In this document: piece by piece, positions 18,467 through 63,603 of the stretch | How positions within the stretch are numbered: position 1 is the first letter of the stretch | Layout of the letters: every line of letters begins with the position of its first letter | DNA from: Plumapathes pennacea | Lineage: Eukaryota > Cnidaria > Anthozoa > Antipatharia > Myriopathidae | Assembly (NCBI GenBank): GCA_964036295.1 | Contig: OZ038468.1 | Location: 2,511,501-2,575,500, forward strand | Reading direction: 5' to 3' | DNA: 64,000 nucleotides | Position numbers and translations under genes: made by a program | The notes under the pieces: model-generated | The model's database searches: none | Told to the model about the DNA's origin: nothing | The model's input: only the letters and a program-made list of their open reading frames with translations

Positions 18467-18517
<51 letters not shown>

Positions 18518-34336: not shown

Positions 34337-37300
34337 CGATGATGATGACGATGATGATGATGATAAATAAATAAATAATGAAATGTTAGCAAATAAAATC
34401 TTCTCACCACACAGTCTCTATTATCAGCATAGCTCGTGCATTGCTTCTTTGACACAAGAGGCCCACATGCCTTCCCGCGGCAAACCGCTGGCTTGACAAT
34501 CTTGCGTGTTTTCTCCGTCCAGCCGTTGCCACATCTACTACTGCAGGGGTTGTACGCTGACCACGATGACATCACGCAGTCCTGGTTCAGATACTGTGCG
34601 CATGACGTTGTGTTTTTCAACGCTGGACAGGAAGCGCCATTACAATAGGGCTGAGTTTTAACGGTACGAGTGCGGGTTTTAGTGCCTGGAGAAAAAAAGA
34701 TTAAAACGCACTATACTTGTGACGATCATTCTACACTGACGTTGCGCATGCTATGGGGGAATTGGTTTCCAAATTTTCGCGGGAGTTTAATTTCGCGGAT
34801 TGCCGACTTTTTGCGTTTCGTGAGAACAAATTAAAAGTTTTTGCAAATTTGGATTTCAGACTTTACTGTTAGGAACACTTTTTCGCGAATCTCGGGCAAG
34901 TTCCTGTCGAAGAAAGTCGAAATATGTACTTGCAGTCAATTTAATTGAAATTTAGTAATGTAAACAAATGGAGTAAATTTTCTTTTTTTGCCGAAGTTCA
35001 TTTTACGGGACTTAATTTTCGCGGATCGCTGGAAAATCCGCGAAAGTCGCGAAAATTTGAACCCGCGAAAATTTCATGCCACACAATAGCAATACTTTGT
35101 TGACCATGAACTCACCCGTCCCACAGGTTGCTGTACAAGAGCTGTACGCTGACCAGCTAGACACCACGCAGTTGACAGGGCAGCAACTGTGAGTACAGGC
35201 CTGGGTCTCATTCAGTGTAGGACATACACTGCTGCAGTACGGTTGCCTAGTAACATTACGGGTTCGTGATCTGGATCCTTTTCCGCATTTCCCATTGGTT
35301 GGTGAGCACGTGCTCCACAAAGCCCAACTGCTCACCTGCAAAACAATGGTAGCTTCGTTTTAACCAATAGAATGCTTTGTTGTTTTGCGTCAACTTTACG
35401 AGACAAACGATAAATTGCATCAACTTTAGTTGTCGTGGCACACTAAATGCCATGACTGCTAACCGCTGTTGAGGATTCTGACATAACTTGATGCTTTACA
35501 GATTGACCTGTTCTGTACCAGAGCGCCTACCAGGCTTAGCCGTCAGTCAGTTGTCAAAAGCGACCGAGACTAGAGTTCGTTATTAGCGAAAAGCCAAAAC
35601 ATTTCAAGGCTTTTTTTTCTGCGCAGCTGAACATCACTTAAAACAGAATGTATCACAAATTTTCAAAAATACTGCATACTTGATGTCCAAGGAGGGAAAG
35701 CTTCCCCCCTTATTGGTCGTCGAAGTTATGTCTACGCTCTTTAGTACATGTAGGCAAACTTCCGACAATCTCCTGTCTTTTAGCACTATTTTATAGTCGC
35801 ATAATGTTAATTTTATGCTACAATCTACACTCCTGTATACCCAGGCACAACATGCGAATTAAAAGTGCACTCATGGCAAAAAAACTCTACTCTTACCTGA
35901 CAGGTAATTGGCACGGGAGTACACCGCTGACTCTCAGTTTTCGACGGGCACGAACTACCGCCACAGGAAGCTGGCCGCGTGATGGTACGTGACCTTGACC
36001 TTGAGCCGCTGTTCGCACTACAATTTCCAGCCGAAGCATTGCATTTTCCCCAGGAGCCCCAGTTGGACACTAAACAATCACGTCTGCAACAGCCACCGCG
36101 ACAAGCTTTAGTCTCCCTCAATGTTGGGCAGGCGCTTCCACCACAGGATGGTGAAGTTGTGCGTTGTCGCGTACGGACTTGTGTACCAGCTGACTCACAT
36201 TTTGCGTTGCAGCTTCCCCAGCTTGTCCAAGAACCGACCACACAGTTGACAGGACAACAACTAAAGCAAACAAACAAACAAACAACGAATGCTTTTTCAT
36301 GTACAGTATGATGGAATGCCCTTAATAGCTAATGATGGTCTTCATGGCTGATCAGTTTGTCGTTTTGCTCTGGCAAAATGCTTCCTACGGCCAAGACACT
36401 CTTCGTTTCGCTTCATACGTACCATGGGTTCTGTTCGCGATAAAGAATGATTATTGAATATATATTTATACGGATTTTACTCCTGTTTGAGCCACCCTTC
36501 GTCCTGGTAAGCTATCACTAACCAAAACGAGAGACTTTAACCCGCTTCTGAGAATGACTGCAATTTCCTTCTTTAGCTCACTAACAGAAGTATCGTACGG
36601 CATCATGGCTGATTAACTCTTTCACTACCAAGATCAAAATGCAGATTCTCTCAAATATTATAGAAAAAAATGGATGAGTGATGTAGTGAGAAGTGATAGT
36701 TTAAATCTGCTGTCATCTCAACAAGCTATCAAAAGCCAAGTTCTCCTTCCAGTATGATATGTTTCTAGTGAGAAACTGCAGGAGAAAATTGAAGTTGATC
36801 ACTCTTGGGAGTGAAAGGGTTAAACTATGACCCATACTGTTTCTTCTTGAATAGTTGGAATTATTTGTGTGATGAGCTCAGGAGTGAACGGATTGAAGCA
36901 TTCACACGCTGATTTACACGTGACATAAGCCCCGCACGCAGGCGCAGTGCTCATCCTCAGCGCGTAGTCTGGGAACGAGCATACATTTCAAAATGGCCGA
37001 AAAGAGTTCAAGTGTGATTTTTCTTGTAGTTGCACATTTAAGGCTGGTTCACACGGTAAAGCAAGCGCAAACGCAAGCGCAAGAGAATGAAAACTTTTCT
37101 ATTCTCTTGCGCTTGCGTTTGCGCTTGCTTCACAAATTTTACTGTGTGAACCGGTCGCTTGTGCTTGCGTTTGCGTTTGCGCTTGCTTTACTCGTGTGAA
37201 CCAGGCTTTAAGGTTTATACGAGCGTCCTACAACCCCATGCAGTCAAGCATAACACAGCGTGGCAACGAGCTTCTTAACCCTTTCACTCCCAAGTTCAAA

Positions 37301-39947
37301 ATACAAATTCTCCCAACCATAAAATAAGGAAATGTATGAGTAATGAAAAGAGAATTCATTTTTTAATCAGCTGTCATTTGAGCAAGGTATCAAATGCCAA
37401 ATTCTCAATACTTTATGATATATCTCTGGTGGGAGACTGAAGTTGATCACTCTTGCGAGTGAAAGGGTTAAACTGAAAACGTGACATGAAAGTTAATTAA
37501 AGCAACTTTGTTAGATCCTGTCTTAACGTGAACTTGAACGTACCGACGATGATTACAGTTACACAAAATTATTTCAGTCAACCTGAAATGCTAAAATGTT
37601 GATCAAATGTCCATGCATTTTGATTTTATGAATTTTCAAACGACTGAATGACTTTGATTGCGTATAATCCTGCGTATGGAAAAACGTCAAAGGTCAAAGG
37701 TCAAGAACCTTCTTAGCAGTGCTACATCCGCTTACTAATTTAGAATCTCAATAACCAATAAAATATGTACACGGCTCCACTGCACACGACGTCTCCATTT
37801 CGGTTTGTTTATACAAAACACTTCTACCTAGTCAGGTAACTGGTTGTTAGTGCCTTGCGTTTCCCTTCGGAAATGGACAGTAAAGCTTATTAATAACTGC
37901 GTGTGGAAGTTTTATACCTCAAACATGCCTTTGTTTAAACACCTTGACCTCGCTGTAACTGATCTACGTGTTGCAAAAGACCACCAAGACCGACTGCATT
38001 TAGTCACCGTTGTAATAACATTATTAGACCCTAATTCGCACTGCATTATCAACACTAAACACACCAAACGACGAAGCCAGCAACAACGTTTCTCTTCGCC
38101 TGATTGTTCACTGAAAAGCAATTATAAAGTTGCTGTTTCTGCCAGTATATAGAGTTATATTTCAACGGAAATGAAAGTGATGACGGATGCATAATACCTC
38201 AAGCATGCTTACGTCTAAATAATACCTTGACCTATAACTAATCTAACTTTCAAAGTAACTAACTCGCACGTCTTAATCTAACTTTCCGGAAAAAAAATTC
38301 ACAAACAAAAAAAGAAAACAAAGAGACGATTCCGGCACGTGGACAAGTGTTTTCTACTAATAGTCTTCAGTTCTTCGTAATAGGTTCAAGACGCGTCTAA
38401 ACACACAAAACAATGATTTCCTGACTTCAGTGGCAATTCTACTGTTAAAATTTAGTGTTTGGCAATTCACCTCAGATCACACACAAACATGCACTTATAT
38501 CATATTCTAACGAACACGGATTGGGTATTTAATGAAAGCCAAGGACAGCTTATCGTTGAAAAATCAAACGGTGCATTAGATTATGCCATATCCCCTGCCG
38601 AGCGAAACCGGAACTCGAGACGTGTGCTAAAGCAACTGAATCACAGATTTCGCAAAATAAACTAAACTCTACTTCTACTTAATGCATGTTCCAGTGCCAA
38701 AAGGCATCTTTCCAAACAAGTCTTTATCTTTGGAAAGACATTGGTATCTTTGCTGGTGACTGTCTCCATGAATACTAAACAGATGGCGTCACACATAGAT
38801 AAAGGTCTACAAAAATTTAAAAATGTTTAAAGTTTAGGAATTGAGCAAATGACAATAGAAATTCATACTAAATCGATTGATTATCAGGCCAGTACCTGTT
38901 ATTTTCAAACCATTTTAATGGGTTAAATACTTAAAATTGTTCACATGCAGAGAATAGTCCTGAAGTGATCCTAAGATAAATGTAAAGAGGGTCCCTAAAC
39001 TGCACTTAGTCACGGTTCGTTTACACATAAACGTATTGTTTAATTTTAAAAACGTACACTTCAAGAAGCCAAAAAAAAAAAAAAAAAAAGTATGAATAAA
39101 AGAATGATGGAAAAAGAAGCCTGCTGTGAACATCCGTTTATATGTTGACCTGTTTTTAGAAATACTTATGGATGCTGATTGCACAAATTCTAAATGACTG
39201 CTTAAAAAAGATATACGACTTATTCAGAATAGGTTTGGTTAAAGTTCTAAAGTTTGTCCATCAGGTAATTGATTAAGCTCAAAGAATTTTTCGATTCTTG
39301 CGAGTTCTAACTTGTATGAGTAAAAAAATGCCACAAACCACATATTGCTCAAACTACTCGAATGACAAAAGGAGAACTGAATTGATTTGTATCGACAGCA
39401 GAAAACGGAACTGAAAAGGAACAAGAAAGTGAAAGGAAAAAAACAATACGGAGAGAGTAGAAAAAAGAAAAAAATATACGAAGTCCGGAAAGTATTACCA
39501 CAAAATCTTGATAAAACTGAAAACGTACTTGCCAGTGTTACAAGATCGGCTCTGAGTTCTAGAACTTTGACAAGGTGTTCCACCACAACTGGAATACTTG
39601 GAGATAGAAAGCGTTCTCCTTTGCGTGGAATATCCACACCCGCGAAAAGGGCTCCACGAACCCCAGCTAGACTGACAATCAACACGGCAACATTTATGAC
39701 ACCATTTACAAACCGATTTTGGTAAAACACAACTGCCACCGCACGATGCCGGCACATCGACTTTATGTTGACTACAAGTAATACCCCATCCGCATGACTT
39801 CGAACAGGTCGACCAGGTTGTTATATACGTACAAGGCCGAGGGCTGCACGATCGCCGTCTTCTATTTAAACCTGCTCGACGTCGCCAAGAGTAGGACGGG
39901 ATTATCAAGAAAAAAGCCAGCAAAAATAAAAATATGTGAAGTCGCAT
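5475..39947 (-). CDS. Giant TSP1/EGF/sushi/26-cadherin-repeat transmembrane receptor (35-exon model)
   Basis: Probable cell-surface adhesion receptor. Exons in transcript order: 39529-39947, 35897-36260, 35116-35335, 34408-34685, 33088-33207, 32149-32302, 31147-31346, 30601-30797, 30232-30340, 29560-29709, 27967-28386, 26221-27537, 24947-25096, 23773-24192, 22259-23360, 21691-21927, 20691-21289, 18975-19679, 17834-18419, 17203-17410, 16589-16808, 15955-16080, 15346-15420, 14869-15045, 14191-14382, 13354-13504, 12931-13055, 11944-12241, 11168-11400, 9197-10712, 8473-8774, 6950-7099, 6192-6357, 5900-5985, 5475-5669. Every junction is GT-AG and phase-compatible; the joined frame is 11,967 nt and ends TAG. 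Exon 1 here is cassette A, the nearest of several candidate first exons. The order TSP1-EGF-sushi-cadherin-EGF-TM matches no standard cadherin class I can name. Calcium-dependent adhesion is inferred from cadherin motifs (DxNExP linkers, DPDN, LDYE). Single exon edges could shift by a few bases, and alternative exons are not excluded. Confidence 0.82.
7342..7551. mobile_element. TTAACCC-family MITE
   Basis: About 210 bp, with ends TTAACCCTTTCACTCCCAA and GGGAGTGAAAGGGTTA in inverted orientation. It lies in the intron between exons 31 and 32. Confidence 0.8.
8473..8774 (-). CDS. Exon 31: transmembrane helix and first cytoplasmic segment
   Basis: The exon codes a short extracellular stem, a hydrophobic helix from IYYVIAGLVG to VIIVSVAL (about 22 residues), then the stop-transfer CRRNTVNAKKR and a cytoplasmic segment ending MNPLYGADETE, with an NPLY motif. 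Type I topology follows from the N-terminal signal peptide. If the donor at 8472 is not used, the frame reads on 27 codons to a stop at 8392, a possible short-tail isoform. Confidence 0.88.
9197..10712 (-). CDS. Exon 30: cadherin repeats 25C-26, EGF modules, membrane-proximal region
   Basis: A single 1,516-nt exon, phase 0 in and phase 1 out. It finishes repeat 25 (LNYEHRNS, LMDVNEPPDG) and contains a degenerate repeat 26 lacking the DPDN and LDYE motifs. Then come EGF modules beginning DPCHAGVRDC, IDECLSNPC, IDTCQSSPC, NIDDCEKIEC and an incomplete IDACEPNPC. After these lies about 180 residues without EGF character: an aliphatic segment, an acidic stretch (DETDDED), a Lys/Glu run, RTKR followed by SEEGG, and a second folded-looking half (FVVVASDDGYVYG) with four cysteines. 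RxKR is the consensus of furin-type proteases. The region resembles in position the autoproteolytic or furin-cut modules near the membrane in other large adhesion receptors, but I cannot assign a family. Confidence 0.85.
11168..17410 (-). CDS. Exons 20-29: end of cadherin repeat 19 to start of repeat 25
   Basis: Ten small exons: 17203-17410, 16589-16808, 15955-16080, 15346-15420, 14869-15045, 14191-14382, 13354-13504, 12931-13055, 11944-12241, 11168-11400. They encode more divergent cadherin repeats, with linkers VTDKNDAP, VKDVNEVP, VTDVNEAP, VIDVNDFP, ILDSNDPP and IGDVNEAP. Unlike repeats 2-19, most repeats here span two or three exons. For the exon ending at 11400 I chose the acceptor CCCCCAG over a CACAG 25 bases further on, because only the former restores VHIICTDNGSP after LDYETMQDILIP. 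Repeat 24 begins with a longer leader than the others. Confidence 0.83.
12325..12675. mobile_element. About 350-bp inverted-end element, copy 1
   Basis: Begins TTTATTACACGACTTCACAT and ends CGCGTAATAA. The second copy at 29107-29460 is colinear and nearly identical. Intronic, between exons 27 and 28. Confidence 0.8.
12714..12756. repeat. TAG trinucleotide microsatellite
   Basis: Continuous (TAG)n followed by TAATACTTT. Intronic. Confidence 0.95.
15089..15300. mobile_element. TTAACCC-family MITE
   Basis: Same inverted ends as the copy at 7342 (left TTAACCCTTCAACTCCCAA, right TTGGGAGTGAAAGGGGTAA). Intronic, between exons 23 and 24. Confidence 0.8.
16918..17120. mobile_element. TTAACCC-family MITE
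   Basis: Left end TTAACCCTTTCACTCCCAA intact; right end degraded (GAGTTTGAGAGTGGTTTGAG). Intronic, between exons 20 and 21. Confidence 0.7.
17834..21289 (-). CDS. Exons 17-19: cadherin repeats 14-19 (block 3)
   Basis: Exons 20691-21289 (599 nt), 18975-19679 (705 nt) and 17834-18419 (586 nt). Exon 17 corresponds to the 150-nt plus 420-nt exon pair of blocks 1 and 2 fused into one, with the preceding linker DVNEPPFN attached. The split of the block also moves: repeats 15-17 share one exon and 18-19 another. Diagnostic loops are CLQYGGNFC (repeat 14), TCHNQTNIPGVKTTC (16) and HICLV with RCHD (18). Repeat 19 finishes in the next exon. Confidence 0.88.
18463..18520. repeat. AAAT microsatellite
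   Basis: About 14 uninterrupted AAAT units in the intron between exons 18 and 19. Confidence 0.95.
18579..18789. mobile_element. TTAACCC-family MITE
   Basis: Ends TTAACCCTTCGACTCCCAA and GGGTGATAAAGGGTTAA. Intronic, between exons 18 and 19, next to an AAAT microsatellite (18463-18520). Confidence 0.78.
21360..21510. repeat. Purine-rich tract in intron 16
   Basis: About 150 bp almost purely A and G on the plus strand (GGAAGGAAAAAAGG type), so a long polypyrimidine stretch on the transcribed sense strand just upstream of exon 17. Confidence 0.8.
21691..25096 (-). CDS. Exons 13-16: cadherin repeats 8-13 (block 2)
   Basis: Exons 24947-25096 (150 nt), 23773-24192 (420 nt), 22259-23360 (1,102 nt) and 21691-21927 (237 nt). 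The first two have exactly the sizes and phase of the first two exons of block 1. Repeat 8 has the loop CLKQGGSSC, repeat 10 CQHVSNTPGIKTKC, repeat 12 HVCDV with KCTD. The last repeat is split by a phase-1 intron and its DVNEPPFN linker starts the next exon. Calcium-binding cadherin ectodomain; extracellular. Confidence 0.88.
26221..29709 (-). CDS. Exons 10-12: cadherin repeats 2-7 (block 1)
   Basis: Exons 29560-29709 (150 nt), 27967-28386 (420 nt) and 26221-27537 (1,317 nt), all phase 0. They encode six extracellular cadherin repeats with PEN/KEN starts, DEDxGQ or DPDN calcium motifs, LDYE/NFEE and DxNExP linkers. Repeat 2 carries an extra loop with two cysteines (CLQTGGSNC), repeat 4 another pair (SCKTNSQNGTTC), and repeat 6 a pair at HTCIL and QCTD. 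These loops recur in the same places in repeats 8/10/12 and 14/16/18, so this is the first copy of a six-repeat module. Confidence 0.88.
27660..27850. repeat. Tandemly duplicated half of a TTAACCC-family element
   Basis: A segment with GATATATCGCATGAGAAACT and GGAGTGAAAGGATTAAA is present twice in direct order, about 98 bp apart. It lies in the intron between exons 11 and 12. Confidence 0.75.
28545..29095. repeat. Degenerate pentanucleotide array (TGTGC/TGTTC)
   Basis: About 550 bp of alternating TTCTG, TGCTG and TGGTG pentamers. Because 5 and 3 are coprime, all three plus frames stay open for long stretches and read Val/Leu/Cys-rich peptides; these are not genes. Intronic, between exons 10 and 11. 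Confidence 0.92.
29107..29460. mobile_element. About 350-bp inverted-end element, copy 2
   Basis: Same element as at 12325, ending CGTGTAATAACCTC. Intronic, between exons 10 and 11, directly after the pentanucleotide array. Confidence 0.8.
30232..31346 (-). CDS. Exons 7-9: sushi domain completion and cadherin repeat 1
   Basis: Exon 31147-31346 completes the sushi/CCP module (CKHAIVTCPGG, CSLSCPQYYV, ITCQTSGQWT, SFC) and ends INDPPTQ, the start of a cadherin linker. Exon 30601-30797 gives IVLSGSGTVPENQPRG, SSVDPNSKDKHTY and FDFETSPNK. Exon 30232-30340 gives YSIVVRSTDNGKP and VTDVNEAPTAIQ. Together they form cadherin repeat 1. Phases 1, 0, 2, 0 are consistent across these joins. Sushi modules mediate protein contacts in complement and adhesion proteins; the partner here is unknown. 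Confidence 0.85.
32149..32302 (-). CDS. Exon 6: EGF-like module and start of sushi domain
   Basis: Minus-strand exon between TTTCTAG and GTAAGAAT. It codes ETSQCGTANNGCEHIC, then CSCRPGYNL and NCV, a calcium-binding-type EGF pattern, followed by KDCGKPTPRYC, which opens a sushi/CCP module continued in the next exon. It ends in phase 1, matching the exon at 31346. It lies between the TSP1 tip and the cadherin stalk. The following intron side (32319-32352 on the upstream flank) carries an AAC microsatellite. Confidence 0.85.
32319..32352. repeat. AAC microsatellite
   Basis: Eleven CAA units about 17 bp upstream of exon 6, within its polypyrimidine-tract region on the minus strand (TTG units there). 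Confidence 0.9.
32770..33015. mobile_element. MITE-like inverted repeat element
   Basis: Left part CCCGGTTAAGCTAACCTGGG is complementary to right part CCCAGGGTTAGCTTAACCTTG. About 245 bp, no coding capacity, in the intron between exons 5 and 6. Confidence 0.7.
33088..36260 (-). CDS. Constant exons 2-5: six TSP1 repeats
   Basis: Exons 35897-36260, 35116-35335, 34408-34685 and 33088-33207. They encode six thrombospondin type-1 repeats of the form WxxW, CxxxC, RxR, CGGxxCP. Exon 2 begins with one base completing a phase-2 codon, then CCPVNCVVGSWTSWGSC, with a second repeat LVSNWGSWGKC. Exon 3 holds VSSWALWSTC and the start of a fourth repeat, split by a phase-1 intron. Exon 4 completes it and adds MSSWSAYNPC. 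Exon 5 is a compact repeat, VSGWSAWGAC. WxxW and CxxTCG are established signals for C-mannosylation and O-fucosylation of TSP1 modules. Exon 2 is the only acceptor seen downstream of the first-exon cassettes, so it probably marks the start of the constant region. Confidence 0.85.
33241..33656 (-). repeat. 113-bp tandem array of decayed copies of TSP1 exon 5
   Basis: Just upstream (transcript sense) of exon 33088-33207 are about 3.6 copies of a 113-bp unit with starts at 33242, 33355, 33468 and 33581. Each is derived from the 3' two-thirds of exon 5 plus adjoining intron. Copies alternate between two subtypes (A-B-A-B), so the last expansion was of a dimer. The exon itself begins the series with a 122-bp spacing. 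In one copy a TTTAG acceptor and the residues NEKCAVG remain readable, but the donor and the WSAW motif are lost, so these are pseudo-exons. Confidence 0.85.
34188..34365. repeat. GAT/GAC-rich microsatellite
   Basis: Mostly ATG and ACG triplets, continuous from about 34299. It lies just after the donor of exon 4 (transcript sense). Confidence 0.9.
36613..36823. mobile_element. TTAACCC-family MITE
   Basis: Inverted relative to the 7342 copy: left end TTAACTCTTTCACTACCAA, right end GGGAGTGAAAGGGTTAA. In the intron before constant exon 2. Confidence 0.78.
37037..37210. mobile_element. 174-bp MITE-like foldback element
   Basis: Terminal inverted repeats read TAAGGCTGGTTCACAC at the left and GTGTGAACCAGGCTTTA at the right. 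The interior is itself palindromic, with arms AAGCAAGCGCAAACGCAAG and their complement around AACTTTTCT. It has no coding capacity. It lies in the first intron of the receptor gene. Confidence 0.75.
37275..37471. mobile_element. TTAACCC-family MITE
   Basis: Ends TTAACCCTTTCACTCCCAA and GCGAGTGAAAGGGTTAA. Second copy within the same intron as 36613-36823. Confidence 0.78.
39529..39947 (-). CDS. First-exon cassette A: signal peptide, Arg tract, two TSP1 repeats
   Basis: Starts at MRLHIFLFLLAFFLIIPSYS, a clear signal peptide. WRRRAGLNRRRRSC follows, then two TSP1 repeats (TTWSTCSKSCGWG with CGGSC; SSWGSWSPFRGCGYS with CGGTPC). The open frame reaches GGCAA then GTACGT, a good donor, leaving phase 2. 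The acceptor at 36260 supplies T, giving GN-CCPVNC and an unbroken TSP1 series. It is the cassette nearest the constant exons (3.3-kb intron). An in-frame ATG lies 18 bases upstream, but the MRLHIF start is the one shared with cassette B. TATATAAG lies 46 bp upstream of the ATG. Confidence 0.87.
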
Positions 39948-39992
39948 TTTTCGCTTGCCAAACATAATGCTTTGAATGGAGAAGCTCATCCA

Positions 39993-40000
39993 CTTATATA
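39993..40000 (-). promoter_or_regulatory. TATA box of cassette A
   Basis: TATATAAG on the minus strand, 46-53 bp upstream of the cassette A start codon. Cassette B has the same octamer at the same distance, and the sequence between (TGAGCTTCTCC) is also conserved. This supports separate core promoters rather than one distant promoter. Confidence 0.6.
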
Positions 40001-40031
40001 CGTTACGTGTTACGTTTGAGAAACAAGACAT

Positions 40032-41111
40032 TGATCACCGTATAAGCAGTATGTTTCATAACAAGCTTTGGTAGATGAATTTCTAAATTCTCTTTATGAA
40101 AAGTGACGTCGTGAGTTGTAAAGTAATACAGGATTTTGCCTCAATACTAAATTCTCTTTTAACTGATTGCAACATTACCTCATTAAGTGTTGGGAGAATA
40201 TACATTAACAGATCTAAAACATTTGTCTGGTCGTGTCTTCACTCAACACCAAATGGAATGTACTATAGTAACTCCCTGCTTCACAGAAAATATAACTAAA
40301 TGAACCTAAAACCTAAGCACCATTTTAAAACGATTACATTGCTTGCGTATATCTTCTACTGCGAAAAGGACAAATTGAAGTAACGGATACTTCAAAGGGG
40401 TGAACTCTGCCTAAGCATCACCGCCTGTCAGTAATATGTCAACTAACTAATTTGAGTTGCTTTAACTCCTTGACCTTGCAATTGATCGTAGTGATCTATG
40501 TAAAAAGACCACCACGACTAACCGCATCTGGTCACGTATTTCGTTACATTCAACGCATGTCGAAACATATAAAAAACCAAGTAAGTAACAAAGTTTTCCA
40601 TGGTCTGATATTTGATGGGGAAAACTCGCGATCAAAGGTAGCTCTTTGGATTGCCTTAAAGGATATACCGCATGTCTTTCTATGGAAATGGAAGTAAAAA
40701 TTGAGGCATTTGTGTGTAAAAGATACATAAAATATTATACCCAAAATATCCATTATCTGAACACTTTTAGCTTGTTACTGATATAAAGTAATCATAAAAA
40801 TATCGCCGGATGAAAATTATCGCGCAAGCTTTATTCCAAATTTCTGAAAAGCAATAAAAAGGAATAAAGGAAAAAAAGGTCCGGACAGTGCCAAATTTGG
40901 AATACGCAACTTTCTAAAATGGAAGTCACTTATTGACACAGAAAGAATGACTGACTGACGGACTGACGAAGTGAACTCTTAATGCAATAAGCTCGCTTTC
41001 TGCTTAGGTGGGATGACAAGCTTAAAAAGAAGAAGCATGACGACGAAGCAGAACGGTATCAAGAATATTTAGAACATACATGGAACAATATAAAGTAAAA
41101 AAATAACGTAC
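40032..41111. other. Spacer between cassettes A and B
   Basis: A/T-rich DNA without a supported gene. Short open frames on both strands overlap one another and lack domain features. Part of the 5' flank of cassette A is similar to the flank of B (decreasing similarity away from the start codon). Confidence 0.5.
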
Positions 41112-41509
41112 TTGCCAGTGTAGCAGGATCGGCTTTGAGGACTTGGGCAAGATGTTCCCCCACAACTGGGATATCTAGAAACAGACGCCGTTCTTCTTTT
41201 TGTGGAATATCCACACCCGCTACAAGAGTTCCATGAACCCCAACTATACTGACAATTTTCGCGAACATACATATAACAGGTATGGCCGTGTGAATTACTC
41301 GGGCAATCTGTACCACCGCAAGAGGGTTTCCTGTAGATTTGGTATATTATAGACCTTGTTCCCCGTCCGCAAGAACTCGAGCATTTTGTATAGTAACCAC
41401 GATAATAACAATCTACACGACTGCATCGTCTTCGCCTTCGCCTTAGCCAAGAGTTGGACGGGATTATCAGGCAAAGGAACAGCAAAAACCAAAAAATGTG
41501 AAGTCGCAT
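41112..41509 (-). CDS. First-exon cassette B
   Basis: MRLHIFWFLLFLCLIIPSNS signal peptide, then WLRRRRRRCSRVDC. The first TSP1 repeat (YTKCSSSCGRGTRS, CGGTDCP) and second (YSWGSWNSCSGCGYS, CGGTSCP) follow, ending SRSCYTGK. The donor GGCAA/GTACGT leaves phase 2, as in cassette A. It differs widely from A in the first repeat but keeps the leader, the CGYSTxRRT core and the donor. Predicted product if spliced to 36260: the same receptor with another N-terminal tip. As an independent gene it would lack any downstream exons. Confidence 0.85.
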
Positions 41510-41554
41510 CCTTTGCTTGCCAAATGTAATGTTCTTCTCGGAGAAGCTCACCGA

Positions 41555-41562
41555 CTTATATA
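41555..41562 (-). promoter_or_regulatory. TATA box of cassette B
   Basis: TATATAAG on the minus strand, 46 bp upstream of the start codon, the same spacing as in cassette A. Cassettes C and E carry CATAACA-like sequence at the equivalent position (44986-44993, 48478-48485), so the box has diverged there. Confidence 0.6.
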
Positions 41563-42729
41563 CCTTTCTTTGAAAACTAAATTATTTAATATTCAGAGAA
41601 GCTAGACATTGATCAATGTATAATCACGCGGTTTACACCAGATTTAAAGGACGATGAATTTCTGAATTCTCTTCCATGTAAAGAGGCGTATAAACATTAG
41701 CTGTAAAATGATACAATTTTTGTTCCAAAACTAAATTCTCTTTAACTGATTGTACATTTCCACAAAAATGTTAGAAGAAAATATACGAGCAGGTCTAAAA
41801 CGATTTGCCTGGTCTTGTCTTAATGTGACACCAACCGTGGTGTTTCAAGGTAACTTCCTACTTCACAGAAAATATTAATAACAGCCCAAAAAACTCAAAT
41901 TTCATAACAATTCATTCAGATATTCGTACTTTTGAACGAATAGTTGGCTTGCATATCTTTAAATGCGCCCAAATCCTAAAGCATATCACGGGAGTTCAAA
42001 ATGAACTTTGACCTGGTATCACATATTACCACGTACGCAGTATTTTATCACATTAAACAAATGTTTTGATTGTTCCTTTTCACTGGTGAAAAAGACAATT
42101 ATAACCGCAAAACTATATAGACAACTAAACAGTGTTTTTCTCCCAACTAGTAACACGCCTTCTTTCAAAACCTATGCGATAAGACATGTCTAAATACATA
42201 AGGCACTTACGTCAGGAGAAAATATTTTTTTGGTTTTGCATTTTCAATTTTACTGTTAGAATCGACAGTACTTCTTCACTGTAGACAATCCAGCACAAAT
42301 ATGGAGCATTAATATATGTCTGTATTCTATAAAACAAGAATAGGTGTATCTTATAGCTGAAGATCAAACGGTGTGGTCTTCACTTACAACATGATTGTTA
42401 TACATTATATCCGCATGCTGGGTTAATTATTCATATTCCTATTACACAGATTCCAAAGAGCACCGTTCCCCATTGGGGGTGCGCATGCAAAGGCATTGGC
42501 AAATGACCTGCGGTCAAAACAACGACGAAGAATCACATATACTATCAACATATACTATCAAGTTCGAGGTCTCATCGTAACAATGTTTCCTGATTCAAAA
42601 CGAAAGGTATGGCTCAAGGTAAGTGACGTTTGCCTGAGAAATCGCGTTGTTTCATGCGTCAGCAATTGAGGTTTTACCACAGTAACTTCCTGTATCACAG
42701 ACTGTGTAAAACTAATGGCCCTAAAAACT

Positions 42730-42763
<34 letters not shown>

Positions 42764-44524: not shown

Positions 44525-44940
44525 TTGCCAGTGTAACAAGATCGGCTTTGAGTTCGAGAAATTGGACAAGATGTTCCTCCACAACTGGAATACTTGGAGA
44601 TAGATAGCGTTCTCCTTTGCGTGGAATATCCGCACCCGCGACAAGCGCTCCACGAACCCCAACTAGACTGACAATTAATTCTTCCACAAGATCTCGTTAT
44701 CTTCTTGGCAGGACAAGAAGCCCCACCGCATATTGCCGCTACCCTAACTCGAAGATCACACGATTGTTGGCAACCTATGCATCCGCTCCAGTCGTACGAG
44801 TAACGACAGTATGTATAACGTTTGCAAGGTATGGGCGTACATGGAGGCGGTCTTCGTCTCCGACGTCTTCGTCTCCACCAGGAGTCGGAAGTAGGTATCG
44901 AGAAAAGAGCTAGCAAAACTACAAAAACGCAAAACTGCAT
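44525..44940 (-). CDS. First-exon cassette C
   Basis: MQFCVFVVLLALFSIPTSDS signal peptide, then WWRRRRRRRRPPPC. The first TSP1 module is unusual (YDWSGCIGCQQSC, CGGASCP); the second is nearly that of cassette A (SSWGSWSACRGCGYSTQRRT, CGGTSCP). The donor GGCAA/GTATGT leaves phase 2. It forms a subfamily with cassette E, sharing leader, flanks and the sequence around the donor. The similarity to A is concentrated in the second module, which suggests gene conversion or exon shuffling between subfamilies. Confidence 0.85.
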
Positions 44941-44993
44941 CCTTTGCTTGTCAAAATGTAATGTTGTGTCTGGAGAAACCTATCGATGTTATG

Positions 44994-47900
44994 CCTTCCG
45001 TGAACAATTCCTCTGTTATATTCCAATATACTTGAGAAAATAGACATCGATCACCAAACTACTAGCCTGTTTTGTAACCAGCTTTGAAAGATGAATGTCT
45101 AAGTTCTCTTTGTGAAAAGTGACTTACACGTCAGCATGCAAACATTCCTAAACAGACTCGCCTGGTCTTAACTTCAAGCGTCAGCAATTGAGGTTTACCA
45201 CAGTAACTTCCTGTATCACAGACTGTATAAAACTAACGGCCCTAACAACTGAATTTTTTCATAAAAAGCAAATTTGGACGTCTGTAACGACTAGTTGGCT
45301 TACAAATTTACTTTTGAGTAAGCACAAGCCCACATGTAAAATATATTAACGGATGTTTAGTGACTGTGAACTTTGACCAAACTTAAGCTTGCTTCAGCAA
45401 TACCACGCATTAACTGTGAGGTTAACTTGGGTGAACGAAAACAAAAGTATTTATGCTGTCCCTTTTCTACCAACTTTCAAACATAAGTGACGAACGACAG
45501 CTTGCCCAAACTAAATGGTAAGAAGAGATTTTTTTTACACAATATAGTCCTAGAATTCACAGTAAGTGCTATATCCGCATGCCAAATGAGCTTAAATCCT
45601 GAGTCATGTATTGAACCACAATTTTAAGATCGAGCCAGAGCGAGGAACCTCTGGCACCCAGGGTATTTATGGTCTTATAACGCAGATGCAAAAGACTAGA
45701 ACAATTCCTGGTGTCACCAGGAAAGTGAAGATAAATCAATCACACTTCAAATCAAATCAAAGTCCTCTGAGTCGACGTTTCCTGTTCTGAAATGAAAGGT
45801 AAGATGCAAAGATGCAAGGTATATTTTAATTGCCTGTTCAAGATATATAACAGCTTTCTGTAAATTTGCGTAGGCCCAGCATTTCCCCAAAAATTCGTAC
45901 AGTGAATATCCTGAACTAGAGCATAGCGTGTGTTCTGTACGATTGTTCGCGACTAATTTTGAGAGATTGGAAGCTGAGTTAGGAAAGCGGCTCAAGATTT
46001 ATCAGTGCACAAGTTCTGCCATTCACACAATAGTCATATATAACGTTGTACAACAGTTCACATCTTGTAAACGGGTGTTATACGTTTCAAAATGCGTACA
46101 TGAATACGTAGGTTTGGATAAAATGTATCCCTAGACAGCTCTAAAGATCCAATAATTACTTTTGCGTGAAATACAAGGGATCCGATTTTCCAATTTTCTA
46201 CAAATAGTCAAATTGGCTTCACATCCTAGGGAATTTGTTCTAAATATTGTCGCAATGGTTGTCATTTTAAATGAAACGCTAGAGGCGGAAGGAGATGAAT
46301 AACATCCAATATAAAACCAGCTTTAAACCTTCTACCCAAACTCTAAACCTTCTAACCCAAACTCTAAACCTTCTAACCCCAACCTAAGCCTAAAAGAAAA
46401 ACCTATCTAATAAGTTAGGTGTAAGGGCTTGGTTAGTTCATGCTCTAAATTGGAGAACTTAGGTTATCAAACAATAGGTGGCATTCAGCAATCGTCACCA
46501 ACCCCCTATAACGAGCACGCGATAAAAACATTGTAATCTATACTTTTTATACATAATCAGAAGAAAATATAAAAGAACAATTATTTGGATTTCTATTTGG
46601 TTTCCTGTTCAAAACAGACTATTTTATGCAAAGCGTTCGCACGTTGTATTTCTCAACTCGCCGATTTCTAGAATGCAGTCGAACATCTTTTCGTCAAAAA
46701 GCTAGACTGACAATCGACGCGGCAACATGTATGACACCATTTACAAACCGATTTTGGTAAAACACAACTGCCACCGCACGATGCCGGACATCGACTTTAT
46801 GTTGACTACAGGTAATACCCCATCCGCATGTCTTCGAACAGGTCGACCAGGTTGTTATATACGTACAAGGCCGAGGGCTACACGATCGCCGTCTTCTAGA
46901 TATACCTTGTTCTACGTTGCCAAGAGTAGGACGAGATTATCAAGGAAAACGCCAGCAAAAATAGAAATATGTGAAGTCGCATTTTTCGCTTACCAAATTA
47001 AACGTTTTCTTTGGATAAGCTCATCAATATATGTAGTACGGCTCCCTTGAACAACTATACTCTATTACAATTGAGAAACTGTGCATTGATCATCGTGTAA
47101 CCAGCCTGTTTTAGAACCAGCTTTGAAAGATGAATTCCTGCATTCTCTTTCTGAAAATTGACATGTAACCTTAGCTGTAAACTAATACAATGTTTCGTCC
47201 CAAAGCTAAATTCTCATTCACTGACTGCAACATCACCTCCACAAATGTTAGGAGAATATGTATTAGCAGATTCTAAAACCTTTGCCTGATCGTGTTTTCA
47301 CGTGACAACACATGGAATCTACTAATGTAACTTTCCACTTCACAAAAAAAGCCTAAAATTAAAGTCGAAGTAACAGTTTCACAGTCAAGCTAATTTGGGT
47401 TTTGCAATTGGAAACGGCTACTTGGCTTGGGTATCTGAAGCTCAAATAATAACGGATGTTTAAAGTGAACTTTGGCCAAGCTCAAGTGCCTGTCAGCAAC
47501 GTATCAAATTAAATTCGGACTGTATTGAGACTGTATCACACACAGTTTTAACACAACATAAGTTTACCACCGTCCTGGTAGACTAAAATACCATGTATAA
47601 AATAACATGAACGAAACTTGGAAATATGTTTTTCACTTTTTCGTTTTGTTTTACTAAATTTACTGTCGTTACCGAAGTTTGTATCGAATTTCCGTGTGTC
47701 TCTACACTTACAGTTTCCATTCGCATAAACGGACCCTTTAAACATACATGGTTTATCTGTCGCGTGTCCTATGTTACCATTTGTGTTGAATGTTTCTACA
47801 GCTCTTGCACCTGATCTATGTGTTATAAAACGATCACCAAGACTAACTGGATCTGTCTAAACACATCCACCTACAGAGCCAAAAACAACGTGCAGTAGTA

Positions 47901-54219: not shown

Positions 54220-54635
54220 ACGCCGGTGTTACAACGCTGTGTCTGAGAGCTCGGGCCCGTGCAAGCAGCCCCACCACAGCTTGGGGCGCGATACGTACGA
54301 ACCCTTTTCTGGGTAGACATTCCACAACCGGTGCATCTACTCCAGGAGCCCCACTGCAGCCAATAACAGTTAATAGGGCAGCAGTTCGTATTGCAGTAGC
54401 GGGTTTGTCTCATGCTGTAAGAACAGGATCCCCCGCACTGTTCCCACACTGTTCTTTGTCGTGTGCGGTATTGCGCGCCTCTCCCGCACGTTCTAGTACA
54501 GGCGCTCCAAGAGCTCCAACCGCCGACGGAGCAGTTGCGATAACATCGGCGCCTTCGTCTTCGACGCCACGCCAACGATGGCGAAAGCAAAGCGAAAAAC
54601 GCCGACAAATAAAGAACTAACACTGTTAACCGCAT
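54220..54635 (-). CDS. First-exon cassette F
   Basis: MRLTVLVLYLSAFFALLSPS signal peptide, then AWRRRRRRRCYRNC and two well-formed TSP1 repeats (GGWSSWSACTRTCGRG, CGGSCS; LQWGSWSRCTGCGMS, CGGAACT), ending QRCNTG. Exon end GGCGT/GTGAGT leaves phase 2; if unspliced, the frame stops directly after. Splicing to 36260 would give CNTGV-CCPVNC. WSSW and CTRTCG fit C-mannosylation and O-fucosylation. A minus-strand TATTTTAAAA lies 44-53 bp upstream of the ATG (54679-54688), at about the TATA position of cassettes A and B. Confidence 0.87.
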
Positions 54636-55778: not shown

Positions 55779-56191
55779 ACGCCCGTGTTACAGCGTCGAG
55801 ATTGGGACGTCGTAGTTGGACAAGCCGTCCCGCCACAGATCGGTCGACGGCGAATCTGAATCGATCTACTCTGCGTAGAAATTCCGCAACCGGAGCATCG
55901 ACTCCACGAGCCCCACTGCCACTGACAGTCAAGTTTGGAGTTTACGACGCAGTAAACCGTATTCCGAAGACTGTAAGAGCATGAACCGCCGCACTGTTCC
56001 GACACTGTTTTGTACCTCGTGCGGTAACGCGTGCCGTAGCCGCACGTTCGCGTGCACGAGCTCCAAGAACTCCAGCTACTGACCGAACAGTTACGGTAAC
56101 ACCTTCGTCTTCGTCTTCGTCTCCACCCCAAAGAGGGCGAAAGCAACATGAAAAACGCAGTCAACTCGAGCACCAACAGTGTTAAGCGCAT
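55779..56191 (-). CDS. First-exon cassette G
   Basis: MRLTLLVLELTAFFMLLSPS leader, then GWRRRRRRRCYRNC and two TSP1 repeats (SSWSSWSSCTRTCGYG, CGGSCS; WQWGSWSRCSGCGIS, CGGTACP), ending RRCNTG. The donor GGCGT/GTGAGT leaves phase 2. A start two codons upstream (MTMRL, 56197) is equally open; I chose MRL by comparison with F. In the linker the usual CNTxCCxxNC is replaced by CVVNSKLDC. G and H together form the block duplicated as I and J. Confidence 0.86.
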
Positions 56192-56229
56192 AGTCACACG
56201 TCTGTTCTCTATGTGACAGCGATAATTTT

Positions 56230-57775: not shown

Positions 57776-58197
57776 ACATTCGCATTGCAGCTCCTGGTTT
57801 GTGATCCGGGACAACTCCTGCCTCCACAAGATGCTTGTGTTCTAACCACAGCATTTCTCCGCTGAGTTGATCCTCCGCATGTCGCTCCACAAGCACTCCA
57901 CGCGGCCCAGCTGAAGACACAGTTGACCGGACAGCATTGGGTGTTACACGTGCGAGAGTCTATTAAACTGGGACAACTGCCGCCGCAGCTTTCGGCCGAA
58001 ATTCTGGCGCGAGTTCGAGTTTGCTTTCCACCACCGCATCTCACGGAACAACCACTCCAGCTTCCCCACTTGGAGAGTCTGCAATCTTTAGGACTACAAC
58101 GATAACGTCGTCGCCTTCTTCTTCTCCACGTTTCGGCTGAACGCAGCATGGACAGGACAACGCATAAAATGAATGTGCTTTGAATAATACGCCTCAT
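57776..58197 (-). CDS. First-exon cassette H
   Basis: MRRIIQSTFILCVVLSMLRS leader, then AETWRRRRRRRYRCSPKDC and two TSP1 repeats (SKWGSWSGCSVRCGGG, CGGSCP; FSWAAWSACGATCGGS, CGGRSCP), joined by CNTQCCPVNC, the same linker the constant exon begins with. The end GAATGT/GTGAGT leaves phase 2. A start eight codons upstream exists (58221), but paralogue J supports MRRI. An LTR retroelement starts at 58224, only 27 bp upstream of the ATG, so any native promoter has been displaced. Confidence 0.87.
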
Positions 58198-58223
58198 ATT
58201 ACGCCGAAAAGTTTTATGCAACC

Positions 58224-58880: not shown

Positions 58881-58919
58881 TGGTGGCAGCGGTTCTCTAG
58901 ATCTCATCTAGACCCCAGA

Positions 58920-59457: not shown

Positions 59458-59466
59458 CGTGGAAGT

Positions 59467-60945: not shown

Positions 60946-61035
60946 TTTGATTTGACTTGATTATGATATGTTGAGCATTGGACTGCATGTTCCATTTCTA
61001 GTTTGATTAGTTTTTATTTTCAGAAAAAGGAGGGA

Positions 61036-61218
61036 TGCTACATTAGGTATCAATTAGGGCATATACATATCAAACTCGTGACCTAATATACATATATAAT
61101 GGACTCGCAACATGATTTTCTTGAGTTGACGATTGTTCTAAAAGCGTACACATTAAAACCCGAGAGCTGAGACGAGACTGGGAGTGTTGCGTTCCCTGAT
61201 AGTGAAGCACACTTAATA
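61036..61218 (+). repeat. 3' LTR
   Basis: 183 bp, preceded by the purine tract and sharing both ends with the 5' LTR. It lacks the inserted hairpin segment. It abuts a 21-bp stretch (61219-61239) that also occurs at 63663-63683 upstream of cassette J. Confidence 0.85.
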
Positions 61219-61620
61219 GGTTCCAGGCTTGGCGTACGTTGGGCAAGCCGTTCCTCCACAGATCGGTCGACGGCGAATCTGAATCGATCTACTCTGCGTA
61301 GAAATTCCGCAACCGGAACATCGACTCCACGAGCCCCACTGCCACTGACGGTCAAGTTTGGAGTTTACGACGCAGTAAACCGTATTCCGAAGACTGTAAG
61401 AGCATGAAACGCCGCACTGTTCCGACACTGTTTTGTACCTCGTGCGGTACCGTGTGCCGTAGCCGCACGTTCGCGAGCACGAGCTCCAAGAACTCCAGCT
61501 ACTGACCGAACAGTTACGGTAACACCTTCGTCTTCGTCTTCGTCTTCGTCTCCACCCCAAAGAGGGCGAAAGCAACATGAAAAACGCAGTCAACTCGAGC
61601 ACCAACAGTGTTAAGCGCAT
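61213..61620 (-). pseudogene. Cassette I: truncated duplicate of cassette G
   Basis: Nearly identical to G from MRLTLLVLEL to CGGTACP, but the last codons and the normal GGCGT/GTGAGT donor are replaced by junction sequence reading TYAKPGTY and a stop. Two conserved residues have also changed: CGG to CGV in the first repeat and the linker cysteine LDC to LDR. Its Arg tract is nine residues against seven in G. A GTACGC at the junction (61237) would be a phase-2 donor after CP, so some residual use cannot be excluded. Confidence 0.8.
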
Positions 61621-63603
61621 AGTCACACGTCTGTTCTCTATGTGACAGCGATAATTTTCGACCCCGCTTTGAAGTAGATTTATCGCATCTTCAGAGACCC
61701 AGGGGCCCGGGGGATGTACTCGATAGGAATTTGGGTGGGGGGGATTCGCTGACTATATAAAAGCCTGACCCTATTCAAGGCATAAAAATGTAAAGTTTGC
61801 TACCCTGTCCAAGACAAAGTGTTCTAATTTGATACCCTGTTTTTAATATTCCAGTCAGTGAGATACGTTAGCCTGCGTTGCGTGCGTTTCTAACTGGAGC
61901 ATACGAAGAAATCGCGTGAAAAAATGACGAGTGCAAATAATGTGGTCGAGGGGGTAGGAGGAGAAAATCTTCGAAAAAAAAAACCCTGTTTAAGACACGA
62001 AAAGGTAAAATTTGATACCCTGTCACTGTCTTAAGACAGAGGACCCTGAAAATATTATAGGAAATATAGTCCAATATAGGAATATAAATGGGAGTAACCC
62101 CCTCCCCCCCCTCCCCGGCGGACCCAGGGGCTTATCGCCATGTCCTCTTCTTTACAATGTACTATATTTCCGGAGTTAGGTATCACAAACGTAATTAATT
62201 TTGACCTCAAGGCCGGATGAAAACGAAAATTTCCGATAAGAACAAGCGGAGTCTACGTTTATAGAAAGTTACGTTAAAAATACAAATATTGCCTGTGCAG
62301 TCACCTTATTTTAAAGTCAGCGGTAATTGCTCAAAACTGTGGATTCAATAGCAAATTTTGTAGTTCAATGTTACGTTCGTAAAACTTCAAGACTCCGACA
62401 AGAAACTCAAATATTGGATTCAATACTCAACTATAAGTGAGTTCAAAGAAGTTTCTATAACATAAGTTAAGCACAAGGAAAACGAGGCTTGTACACAAAG
62501 TGAATATTTTACCGAGTTACATATTAATGGCGACGGGCGTAGACTAACGGAAAGGAACGTCATTAACGTATTTCCGCACATAACCAAACGTGAATCGATG
62601 GTTTGTCATCAATCAACTTCTTGTGAATTGACACTTCTCTCGATCGTCGGTCCGAAGAATGACATTCGCCTTAAACAATTTCACAATCGTGATCTTAAAC
62701 TCTCTTTAAAAAATCCAGAAAAAAATATTCCACCCATCAAAAGTTCCTCAGATAAAAACCGATTGAACTATTAAATCTCACTACATCTTTTCTACATTTT
62801 CTTCTTGAATGGTTTGAGAGAATCTAATATGCCATCAACTCAGGAAAAACCAAATTTGTTCTGACACTCCTATCTTATTTGGACTAGATGTCACTTAATG
62901 TTAATCACGCACATACCCAAAGAAGTAGGCTTGTCATTGATTTAGCTATTCTTCTAAAACACCAAGTTAAATACCCCTTGTAAATACTTCTAATCCTGGT
63001 TATAACTCCGTTAACGAGACAACAAGCTGAGAAAGCAACCGGCACTCAAAAACCACATAATAACAGCCGGGGATTACAGTACCTTCCCGCTATTTCCGTA
63101 CATGCAGGGGCACGAAACGTTGATTAAAAAACCAGACGAAAGAAATATGATAACTCACACATTCGCATTGCAGATCCTGGTTTGTGATCCGGGACACCTT
63201 GTACCTCCACAAGATGCTTGTGTTCTAACCACAGCATTTCTCCGCTGAGTTGATCCTCCGCAAGTCGCTCCACAAGCACTCCACGCGGCCCAGCTGAACA
63301 CACAGTTGACCGGACAGCATTGGGTGTTACACGTGCGAGAGTCTATTAAACTGGGACAACTGCCGCCGCAGCTTTCGGCCGAAATTCTGGCGCGAGTTCG
63401 AGTTTGCTTTCCACCACCGCATCTCACGGAACAACCACTCCAGCTTCCCCACTTGGAGAGTCTGCAATCTTTAGGACTACAACGATAACGTCGTCGCCTT
63501 CTTCTTCTCCACGTTTCGGCTGAACGCAGCATGGACAGGACAACGCATAAAATGAATGTGCTTTGAAGAATACGCCTCATCTTAGCCGAGAAGTCTTATG
63601 CAA
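61238..63603. repeat. Second copy of the two-cassette duplicated block
   Basis: Colinear with 55816-58223. Both hold a G-type cassette, a spacer with the same dispersed repeat, and an H-type cassette. The breakpoint lies inside the end of cassette I (GTTGGGCAAGCCG against GTTGGACAAGCCG in G). Differences are scattered substitutions and short indels, so the duplication is fairly recent. Confidence 0.88.
63159..63580 (-). CDS. First-exon cassette J
   Basis: MRRILQSTFILCVVLSMLRS leader, Arg tract and two TSP1 repeats as in H, ending ICNANV. The donor GAATGT/GTGAGT leaves phase 2. Against H I count four amino-acid changes and two silent ones in the coding part. Three of the replacements lie within 11 codons at the end of the second repeat (GRS to GTR, RSC to RIC). 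Upstream it keeps the sequence that the LTR element interrupts at H. Confidence 0.87.

Follow-up and report, generated by a model that had tools for sequence, protein, structure and literature searches.

Do tandem copies of a short exon, each with its own start codon and splice donor, represent separate small genes, duplicated relics or alternative beginnings of a single gene? This question is raised by a 64,000-nucleotide stretch of Plumapathes pennacea DNA (contig OZ038468.1, positions 2,511,501 to 2,575,500; the window), in which an array of such exons, termed cassettes here, lies upstream of one cadherin-repeat receptor gene. The original prediction was that the cassettes are alternative first exons feeding that single constant gene. 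The sequence tests mostly favor this arrangement, and the locus is very probably a receptor gene with a variable first exon and a constant body. All features of the locus are on the minus strand and carry window numbering.

Anatomy of the cassette array

The window contains ten cassettes, eight of them intact, in agreement with the predicted number and strand. The intact cassettes are A (39529..39947) and B (41112..41509), both with the donor AA|GTACGT; C (44525..44940) and E (48011..48432), with AA|GTATGT; and F (54220..54635), G (55779..56191), H (57776..58197) and J (63159..63580), with GT|GTGAGT. Each is a single open exon of 398–422 nt that encodes, in order, the initiating ATG, a hydrophobic leader consistent with a signal peptide, a tryptophan, an Arg run and two TSP1 units, and ends with a phase-2 donor. 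The donor of each cassette was chosen by eye at the homologous place and a script then measured length and phase; all eight predicted donors, which are the lower coordinates of these intervals, match the exon ends to the base. Cassette D (46698..46982) is broken by stops and frame changes, and cassette I (61213..61620) has lost the donor and the end of the second TSP1 unit. The array had been predicted to end at 63580 but continues beyond the window with cassettes K, L and M (65405–70725), whose donors are placed at 64981, 68629 and 70725, giving array 1 a total of 13 cassettes, 11 intact and all on the minus strand. A second, partial array at 94–110 kb, either a true duplication or an uncollapsed haplotype, has five intact cassettes out of eight, and a partial copy of the first constant exons at about 80–91 kb, with open TSP1 and EGF exons and their splice sites and with its c1 counterpart at about 91.36 kb, precedes array 1 in the direction of transcription. 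The two arrays together hold 21 cassettes, 16 intact and 5 broken.

The donor is in phase 2 in 16/16 intact cassettes, although this common phase is partly inherited through duplication and the 16 are not independent observations. Four donor hexamers occur (GTACGT, GTATGT, GTGAGT and GTAAGT), so that the place and phase of the donor are kept while its sequence differs. The Arg run is encoded by a mixture of CGN and AGR codons and not by one repeated codon (15 cassettes read). The predicted pair of TSP1 repeats agrees with the anatomy of every intact cassette in the window, but profile support is uneven: F, G and H score above the Pfam TSP1 cut-offs, whereas A, B, C and E fall below them and were assigned through alignment to the other cassettes. 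An in-frame stop lies 5–46 codons upstream of the ATG in 16/16 intact cassettes, which fits a first exon, yet chance alone is expected to give a stop at such distances.

A TSP1 profile built from the cassette units was run on six-frame pieces of at least 20 residues over 144 kb and returned 70 stretches, 70/70 on the minus strand. These fall in cassettes (broken ones included), in the constant TSP1 exons and a small group of tandem exon fragments next to the fourth constant exon (c4), or in the partial copy of those exons. One stretch, in the leader of cassette M, has a negative score. This search revealed no additional TSP1 exon in the intervals separating the cassettes, and the predicted absence of another exon before the next cassette thus holds for TSP1 exons.

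The upstream 170–290 bp of A, B, C and E are 73–92% identical in 6/6 pairs, well over shuffles. These conserved blocks are putative promoters and lie at 39948..40230 (A), 41510..41810 (B), 44941..45135 (C) and 48433..48732 (E); in A and B, TATATAAG precedes the ATG by about 50 bp. The intron just behind the donor is clearly alignable in 1/6 pairs of this group (C/E), and A/B is borderline. The homology between F and G spans the ATG to 7 nt beyond the exon end, and that between H and L begins 3 nt ahead of the ATG and likewise extends 7 nt beyond the exon end. Among the 17 pairs tested by local alignment for an upstream element, none of the 11 outside A/B/C/E exceeded shuffles. Conserved upstream sequence that may mark an own promoter covers 4/11 intact array-1 cassettes. 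Local alignment and a k-mer scan were also negative for a motif common to all cassettes like the protocadherin CSE; the best 9-mer was present in 7/10 cassettes compared with 5–6 in eight shuffled sets, a marginal result in which all candidates are AT-rich.

The constant gene and its proposed junction with the cassettes

The downstream constant gene models as 35 phase-consistent exons encoding 3,803 residues. A purpose-written script produced the model, with acceptors picked by a simple home-made acceptor score and with c4 and the EGF exon set by hand from splice sites. The modeled order is TSP1 units, EGF, Sushi, about 20–24 cadherin repeats, EGF-like repeats, a membrane span and a tail with NPxY/F motifs. 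The first constant exon, c1 (35897..36260), carries two TSP1 units behind a phase-2 acceptor and is followed by the TSP1 exons c2 (35116..35335; phase 0 to 1), c3 (34408..34685; phase 1 to 0) and c4 (33088..33207; phase 0 to 0), the EGF-like exon (32149..32302; phase 0 to 1) and the Sushi exon (31147..31346; phase 1 to 0). The cadherin-repeat exons and then the EGF-like repeats occupy 24 exons in the model (9197..30797). The membrane-span exon (8473..8774) encodes the hydrophobic span and the first NPLY of the tail, and NPLF/NPLY motifs continue in the cytoplasmic-tail exons (5137..6357), the last four of the model, which are uncertain. Pfam PF00028 matched 7, 10 and 7 stretches across the three scanned pieces of the gene, and the model contains 20 DxN[DE]xP motifs. 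The constant gene thus has the tandem cadherin repeats that define the cadherin superfamily.

The cassettes and the constant gene would meet at acceptor 36260, TTTAG|TTGTTGTCC, the only phase-2 acceptor among the first six constant exons. The four junctions that were read (A, F, H and M) are all in register and the TSP1 series continues across them, as predicted for this acceptor; they recreate the C....CCPVNC linker that is present inside H-type cassettes. The constant gene had also been predicted to lack a signal peptide of its own. Inspection by eye of minus-strand frames of at least 30 residues between cassette A and 36260 found no alternative signal-peptide exon that continues into the TSP1 frame. 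A signal-peptide-like stretch that starts near 36300 is in a different frame.

The acceptor score used for the gene model was applied to the cassettes. In the 150 nt preceding each ATG, the top acceptor-like site reached the score of 36260 in 0/16 intact cassettes and the 95% level of random stretches in 0/16, the highest being F at the 88th percentile. By this simple score, all 16 intact cassettes are without a strong acceptor in that interval; weak in-phase AG sites occur inside 5/16.

These features suggest a mechanism in which each intact cassette would serve as an alternative first exon that supplies the start codon, the signal peptide, the Arg run and the outermost pair of TSP1 units, probably under a promoter of its own. 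Transcription from the chosen cassette would pass through those lying between it and the constant gene. The latter cassettes, which lack strong acceptors, would be removed along with the first intron as the phase-2 donor of the chosen cassette is spliced to 36260. At about 3,940 residues, the predicted membrane receptor is in line with the roughly 4,000 originally proposed. It would have a swappable TSP1 tip on a common TSP1/EGF/Sushi collar, followed by about 20–24 cadherin repeats, EGFs, the membrane span and the NPxY/F tail. Promoter use, splicing and ligand recognition by the tip are inferred here from the DNA.

Selection, the paralogue and competing explanations

The strongest independent support for a first-exon role of the cassettes comes from a paralogue 0.9 Mb away (C7:1588895-1610144, plus strand), which carries one homologous first exon and shares the phase-2 junction. 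This signal-peptide/TSP1 exon is 47% identical to F over residues 1–83 (E 1.5e-15) and leads into receptor exons through the donor GG|GTAAGT and the acceptor AG|C, both in phase 2. A piece of the tail is 61% identical to that of the array-bearing gene. No other cassette was found within the 6.9 kb examined upstream of the paralogue first exon. The same genome offers in it a ready comparison for the array-less state.

Divergence among the cassettes bears on whether they are maintained. A finite dS was obtained for 37 of the 120 cassette pairs, and dN/dS was 0.17–0.49 in 36 of these; the exception, H'/J', had a ratio of 1.53 on 12 changes. These ratios indicate that the cassettes are under purifying selection. 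In A, B, C and E the first TSP1 unit, the alignment of which is uncertain, is saturated at synonymous sites (pS 0.78, pN 0.46), and these values do not demonstrate positive selection on the tip. The second unit is unsaturated (pS 0.30, pN 0.12). The pattern is read as mosaic evolution, in which the second unit and donor were homogenized and the first unit is old, and does not prove diversifying selection.

Could cassette A, which adjoins the constant gene and is nearest to the acceptor, be the only working first exon, with the others as duplicated relics that are rarely or never transcribed? Decay does occur (5/21 cassettes broken), and chance could have left the youngest duplicates with open frames: simulated neutral substitution left the frame open in 111 (H/L), 466 (K/K') and 248 (L/L') of 4000 runs. 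For six diverged pairs, however, the frame stayed open in 5–12 of 4000 runs, which makes open frames improbable under neutral drift. The 11/13 intact cassettes of array 1, several of them preserved despite large synonymous divergence, the dN/dS values below 0.5 in all but one measurable pair and the conserved upstream blocks at B, C and E also argue against relics, making this explanation very unlikely. Less likely still is that the cassettes are separate small secreted proteins, composed of the signal peptide, Arg run and two TSP1 units, that end just past the second unit. In F, G, H, J, K, L and M the frame does close directly after the donor, but A, B, C and E have no such stop and yet keep the donor at the same place and phase. 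The homologies of F/G and H/L continue 7 nt into the intron, AATAAA or ATTAAA occurs within 400 nt after the donor in 4/11 array-1 cassettes, and the homologous exon of the paralogue leads into receptor exons with the identical junction phase. The stop is a by-product of a phase-2 GTGAGT or GTAAGT donor. A short secreted two-TSP1 product through intron retention is possible in those seven cassettes.

Splicing to a site other than 36260, such as the TSP1/EGF exon copies that belong to the second array, or exons that went unrecognized, is the least probable of these alternatives. The partial copy does retain open exons with splice sites, but array 1 lies downstream of it in the direction of transcription, and 36260 belongs to the first TSP1 exon ahead of array 1, with no other detected between them when TSP1 exons were sought. 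The preferred reading remains a single constant gene fed by alternative first exons, supported by the phases, the junctions, the paralogue, purifying selection, the lack of strong acceptors and, in one subfamily, the conserved upstream blocks. An extension of this reading that we consider unlikely is that both arrays share the one cadherin body, array 1 through the near collar. Array-2 cassettes would be spliced to the TSP1/EGF collar copy that lies next to them. The last exon of this copy ends in phase 1, and the transcripts would bypass array 1 and continue with the phase-1 Sushi exon at 31346. Cells would choose one or a few tips, which would provide recognition identity (self, non-self or symbiont) for cells or individuals outside Bilateria.

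Relation to known variable-first-exon systems

The locus has a tandem array of similar same-strand putative first exons upstream of one constant exon set. Every intact cassette begins with a start codon and ends in a donor that fits the shared acceptor (16/16 phase 2, as is 36260). The closest known layouts are the chelicerate sDscam 5' cassettes and UGT1, in which the N-terminal part varies and the rest is constant (PMC4835542, PMC1885805); both are closer than the protocadherins. In sDscam genes, tandem cassettes diversify the outer end of the ectodomain, which there consists of one or two Ig domains, and the remainder of the protein is constant (Yue et al. 2016, PMC4835542), a division that the sequence suggests here too. 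As a rule, each sDscam cassette reportedly has a promoter in front of it and an in-frame stop ahead of its ATG, and sDscam genes tend to cluster through duplication (PMC4835542). An sDscam is an arthropod Ig/FNIII receptor with cassettes of two or four exons, whereas the cnidarian locus would place a single-exon TSP1 tip on a cadherin body. The pieces scanned contain TSP1, EGF, Sushi and cadherin domains and no Ig or FNIII match, which places the gene outside sDscam as defined by those ectodomains. In UGT1 and GCNT2, tandem similar first exons are likewise spliced to common downstream exons, and the N-terminal domain of the UGTs is the part that the variable exon supplies; these clusters encode enzymes and were described as vertebrate-specific (PMC1885805). 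The original prediction knew of no TSP1-tip/cadherin-stalk system: the layout has these precedents, and the combination of TSP1 and cadherin differs from both sDscam and UGT1.

Clustered protocadherins are also cadherin-superfamily membrane receptors with tandem first exons and constant exons. In the alpha and gamma clusters, the variable exon contains the full set of six cadherin repeats together with the membrane span and the proximal part of the tail, so that only the distal tail is left to the constant exons (PMC7811963). The coding content of the cassettes is limited to a signal peptide, an Arg run and a pair of TSP1 units, whereas the cadherin repeats are in the constant part; the locus is thus not a clustered protocadherin, in line with the predicted inversion relative to that system.

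TSP1 proteins are expanded in anthozoans, a likeness to the present array, and cnidarian TSR proteins are reported to promote symbiont colonization in an anemone (PMC5446238), which makes the TSP1 tip a plausible recognition surface by analogy. The passages on TSR proteins in PMC5446238 describe no variable-exon organization, and the word "cadherin" is absent from its main text. The layout resembles the means by which vertebrates and spiders diversify cell-recognition proteins. If the preferred reading is correct, an animal outside Bilateria would share a genomic trick with clustered protocadherins and chelicerate sDscams using other domains, with one body and many tips. A repeated origin of variable-first-exon diversification in surface receptors would then be suggested, and isoform choice in a cnidarian receptor would be directly testable.

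Single-exon cassettes and the constant gene

The assembly is an animal genome of 290 Mb in 24 contigs, and the window corresponds to C7:2,511,501–2,575,500. Ten minus-strand TSP1 cassettes (A–J) lie in the window and eight of them are intact, as the original prediction held; all eight cassette donors that it named agree to the base with the exon ends read here. Stops and frame changes disrupt cassette D, and cassette I is missing its donor and the last part of its second TSP1 unit. Across the whole region, an intact cassette is a single exon of 398–425 nt in which an ATG is followed by a hydrophobic leader, a tryptophan, an arginine run, two TSP1 units and a donor. Cassettes F, G and H pass the Pfam TSP1 cut-offs; A, B, C and E fall below. 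The run spans 4 to 8 consecutive arginines in the 15 cassettes printed, and because CGN and AGR codons are mixed in order, with no single repeated codon, it looks to be maintained at the protein level. Lying beside the leader, it could serve for proprotein cleavage or give the protein a charged amino terminus.

The extent of the array emerged from searching the whole genome with F and A as queries and from scanning 144 kb comprising the window and its surroundings. The in-window members of the predicted array stand, but its end point at 63580 does not: cassettes K, L and M continue past the window at 65405–70725 (counted from the window start), giving 13 cassettes in this array (array 1), 11 of them intact. 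A Gypsy-like retroelement piece with an integrase core lies between cassettes H and I (window 59155–60945, plus strand), and most of this stretch also aligns in a second array (array 2) farther along the contig (C7).

The downstream constant gene was modeled from its first acceptor, 36260, as 35 phase-consistent exons encoding 3,803 residues; the exon chain is our own model, and its small exons and final four exons are uncertain. Pfam detects five TSP1 stretches in the first three exons (c1–c3), an EGF-like domain plus EGFs, and cadherin repeats in each of three pieces (7, 10 and 7 stretches), and the Sushi domain scores above the cut-off in one scan and just below it in another. The model contains 20 DxN[DE]xP motifs, and a membrane span and tail NPLY/NPLF motifs were identified by reading the sequence. 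A cassette plus the constant model totals ~3,940 residues, in line with the roughly 4,000 expected. Four tandem TSP1-exon fragments, ~113 bp apart, adjoin the fourth TSP1 exon (c4) at window 33179–33652.

Proposed joining of cassettes to acceptor 36260

The donor is in phase 2 in all 16 intact cassettes, with four different hexamers (GTACGT, GTATGT, GTGAGT and GTAAGT). Acceptor 36260 is also in phase 2, the sole such acceptor in the first six constant exons, and it continues a TSP1 series as predicted: cassettes A, F, H and M joined to it read C....CCPVNCVVGSW, the same linker found between the TSP1 units inside H-type cassettes. Shared phase alone is weak evidence because duplication passes phase on; the retention of place and phase despite differing donor sequences is stronger evidence. 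No strong acceptor was found ahead of the cassettes. In 16 of 16 cassettes, the best AG in the 150 nt ahead of the ATG scores lower than 36260 and does not reach the 95% level set by random stretches (highest for F, at the 88th percentile). Weak in-phase AG sites occur within 5 of the 16. The absence of strong upstream acceptors is compatible with first exons.

The cassettes might instead be stand-alone genes, and the arguments are mostly against this. The claim that no further exon lies between cassettes holds for TSP1 exons, the kind systematically searched for, none of which was detected. In F, G, H, J, K, L and M, the stop directly past the donor, which would suit a separate short gene, is a consequence of the phase-2 GTGAGT or GTAAGT donor, and AATAAA or ATTAAA is found in the first 400 nt past the donor in 4 of 11 array 1 cassettes (B, F, K and M). 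A short soluble form produced by intron retention is possible.

The strongest single argument for alternative first exons is independent of the array. A shorter paralogue lies at C7:1,588,895–1,610,144 on the plus strand; it is known from exon-by-exon reading, and its integrity as a gene is thus presumed. One exon encodes a signal peptide and one TSP1, lacks the arginine run and shares 47% identity with cassette F across residues 1–83 (E = 1.5e-15). Its donor, GG|GTAAGT in phase 2, is followed by a phase-2 acceptor before CCGSINC, and c3-like, c4-like, EGF, Sushi and cadherin frames lie past this junction; a tail piece is 61% identical. No other TSP1 frames were seen in the 6.9 kb fetched upstream. 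A related receptor gene thus has a homologue of the cassettes as its sole first exon. Between the TSP1 exons of this paralogue, a ~1.5 kb microsatellite (C7:1,595,182–1,596,719) has three open frames (poly-His, poly-Ser and poly-Ile).

Most likely, a promoter would be chosen at one cassette, transcription would proceed from there as far as the constant gene, and splicing would link the cap-proximal donor to 36260. Published work describes such a scheme for two known systems: promoter choice with transcription to the constant exons (PMC7811963) and a cap-proximal donor rule (PMC4835542) for protocadherins, and a similar mechanism, with exceptions, for sDscam (PMC4835542). A cnidarian TSP1-cadherin receptor with variable first exons appeared in no title or abstract among the matches listed, in which few subscription journals are covered; this is weak evidence of absence. 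The organization is already known in kind, and what is new is the domains and the host.

Selection, diversity and flanking sequence

A finite dS was obtained for 37 of 120 intact-cassette pairs, and dN/dS is 0.17–0.49 in 36 of these; the value of 1.53 for the array 2 pair H′/J′ rests on 12 changes. In a neutral simulation with the entire divergence placed on one lineage (4000 runs), six diverged pairs kept the frame open in 5–12 runs each, and the recent pairs H/L, K/K′ and L/L′ in 111, 466 and 248 runs, respectively; recent duplicates are therefore weakly informative. Among A, B, C and E, saturation affects the first TSP1 unit and not the second. Averaged over all pairs of 10 array 1 cassettes (J, a near copy of H, was omitted), identity is lower in the first unit (0.40) than in the second (0.53), which makes the tip-most unit the more variable one.

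The 170–290 bp upstream of the ATG are 73–92% identical in all six pairs of A, B, C and E (scores of 52–150 versus a shuffled maximum of 27.5), and a clear alignment of the intron directly past the donor is seen in one of the six (C/E; A/B is borderline). Sequence ahead of broken cassette D aligns with the block ahead of A (76%), and TATATAAG occurs ~50 bp ahead of the ATG in A and B. Upstream likeness exceeded shuffles in none of 11 further pairs that were tested. The F/G homology starts at the ATG and the H/L homology 3 nt ahead of it; both extend 7 nt beyond the exon end. H and L are 91% alike within the exon and unrelated outside it, a pattern that looks like exon-wide gene conversion.

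A partial tandem copy and other TSP1 loci

A partial tandem copy, with an array and TSP1/EGF exons and part of it in two copies, spans C7:2,582,660–2,621,991 (~71–110 kb in window numbering). Its array 2 (94–110 kb), ~92–96% identical in DNA to the stretch that it copies over blocks above 1 kb, holds eight cassettes. Five of these, H′, J′, K′, L′ and M′, are intact; A′ has a frame change ahead of the donor, the start of B′ was not seen and the end of G′ is gone. Exons copied from the constant gene (TSP1 and EGF) are open with splice sites present, some occur twice, and c2′ lacks one cysteine pair. The tandem fragments adjoining c4 are present here too.

The copy ends ~14 bp ahead of the Sushi exon, and Sushi, cadherin and tail exons were not found within it. 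A blastn comparison of C7:2,582,655–2,605,700 (pieces above 150 nt) aligned satellite and intron repeats only and no exon from Sushi onward; a tail search had no hits beyond the window's gene and the paralogue. No additional cassettes were seen as far as C7:2,635,500. A 28-bp-type satellite abuts the truncation point (C7:2,591,085–2,591,397) and is also present past the far end of the constant gene (window 1–4850); it may have mediated the exon loss. The copy may be a real duplication or an uncollapsed haplotype.

Additional TSP1 frames occur on C7 at 10.64 Mb, 13.62–13.69 Mb and 19.1–19.35 Mb, several of which align with cassette F over its leader and first TSP1 unit. A second contig carries a further large gene of TSP1 repeats, with 33 matches of near-equal score mostly ~460 bp apart (C4:12,173,258–12,189,682). 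The finding of 17 nuclear-receptor DNA-binding domains and a split COX1 is consistent with a hexacoral, and probably with a sea anemone. Contig C24 is mitochondrial by its COX1, which, with TGA read as Trp, is interrupted by a ~0.85 kb gap holding a LAGLIDADG endonuclease reading frame.
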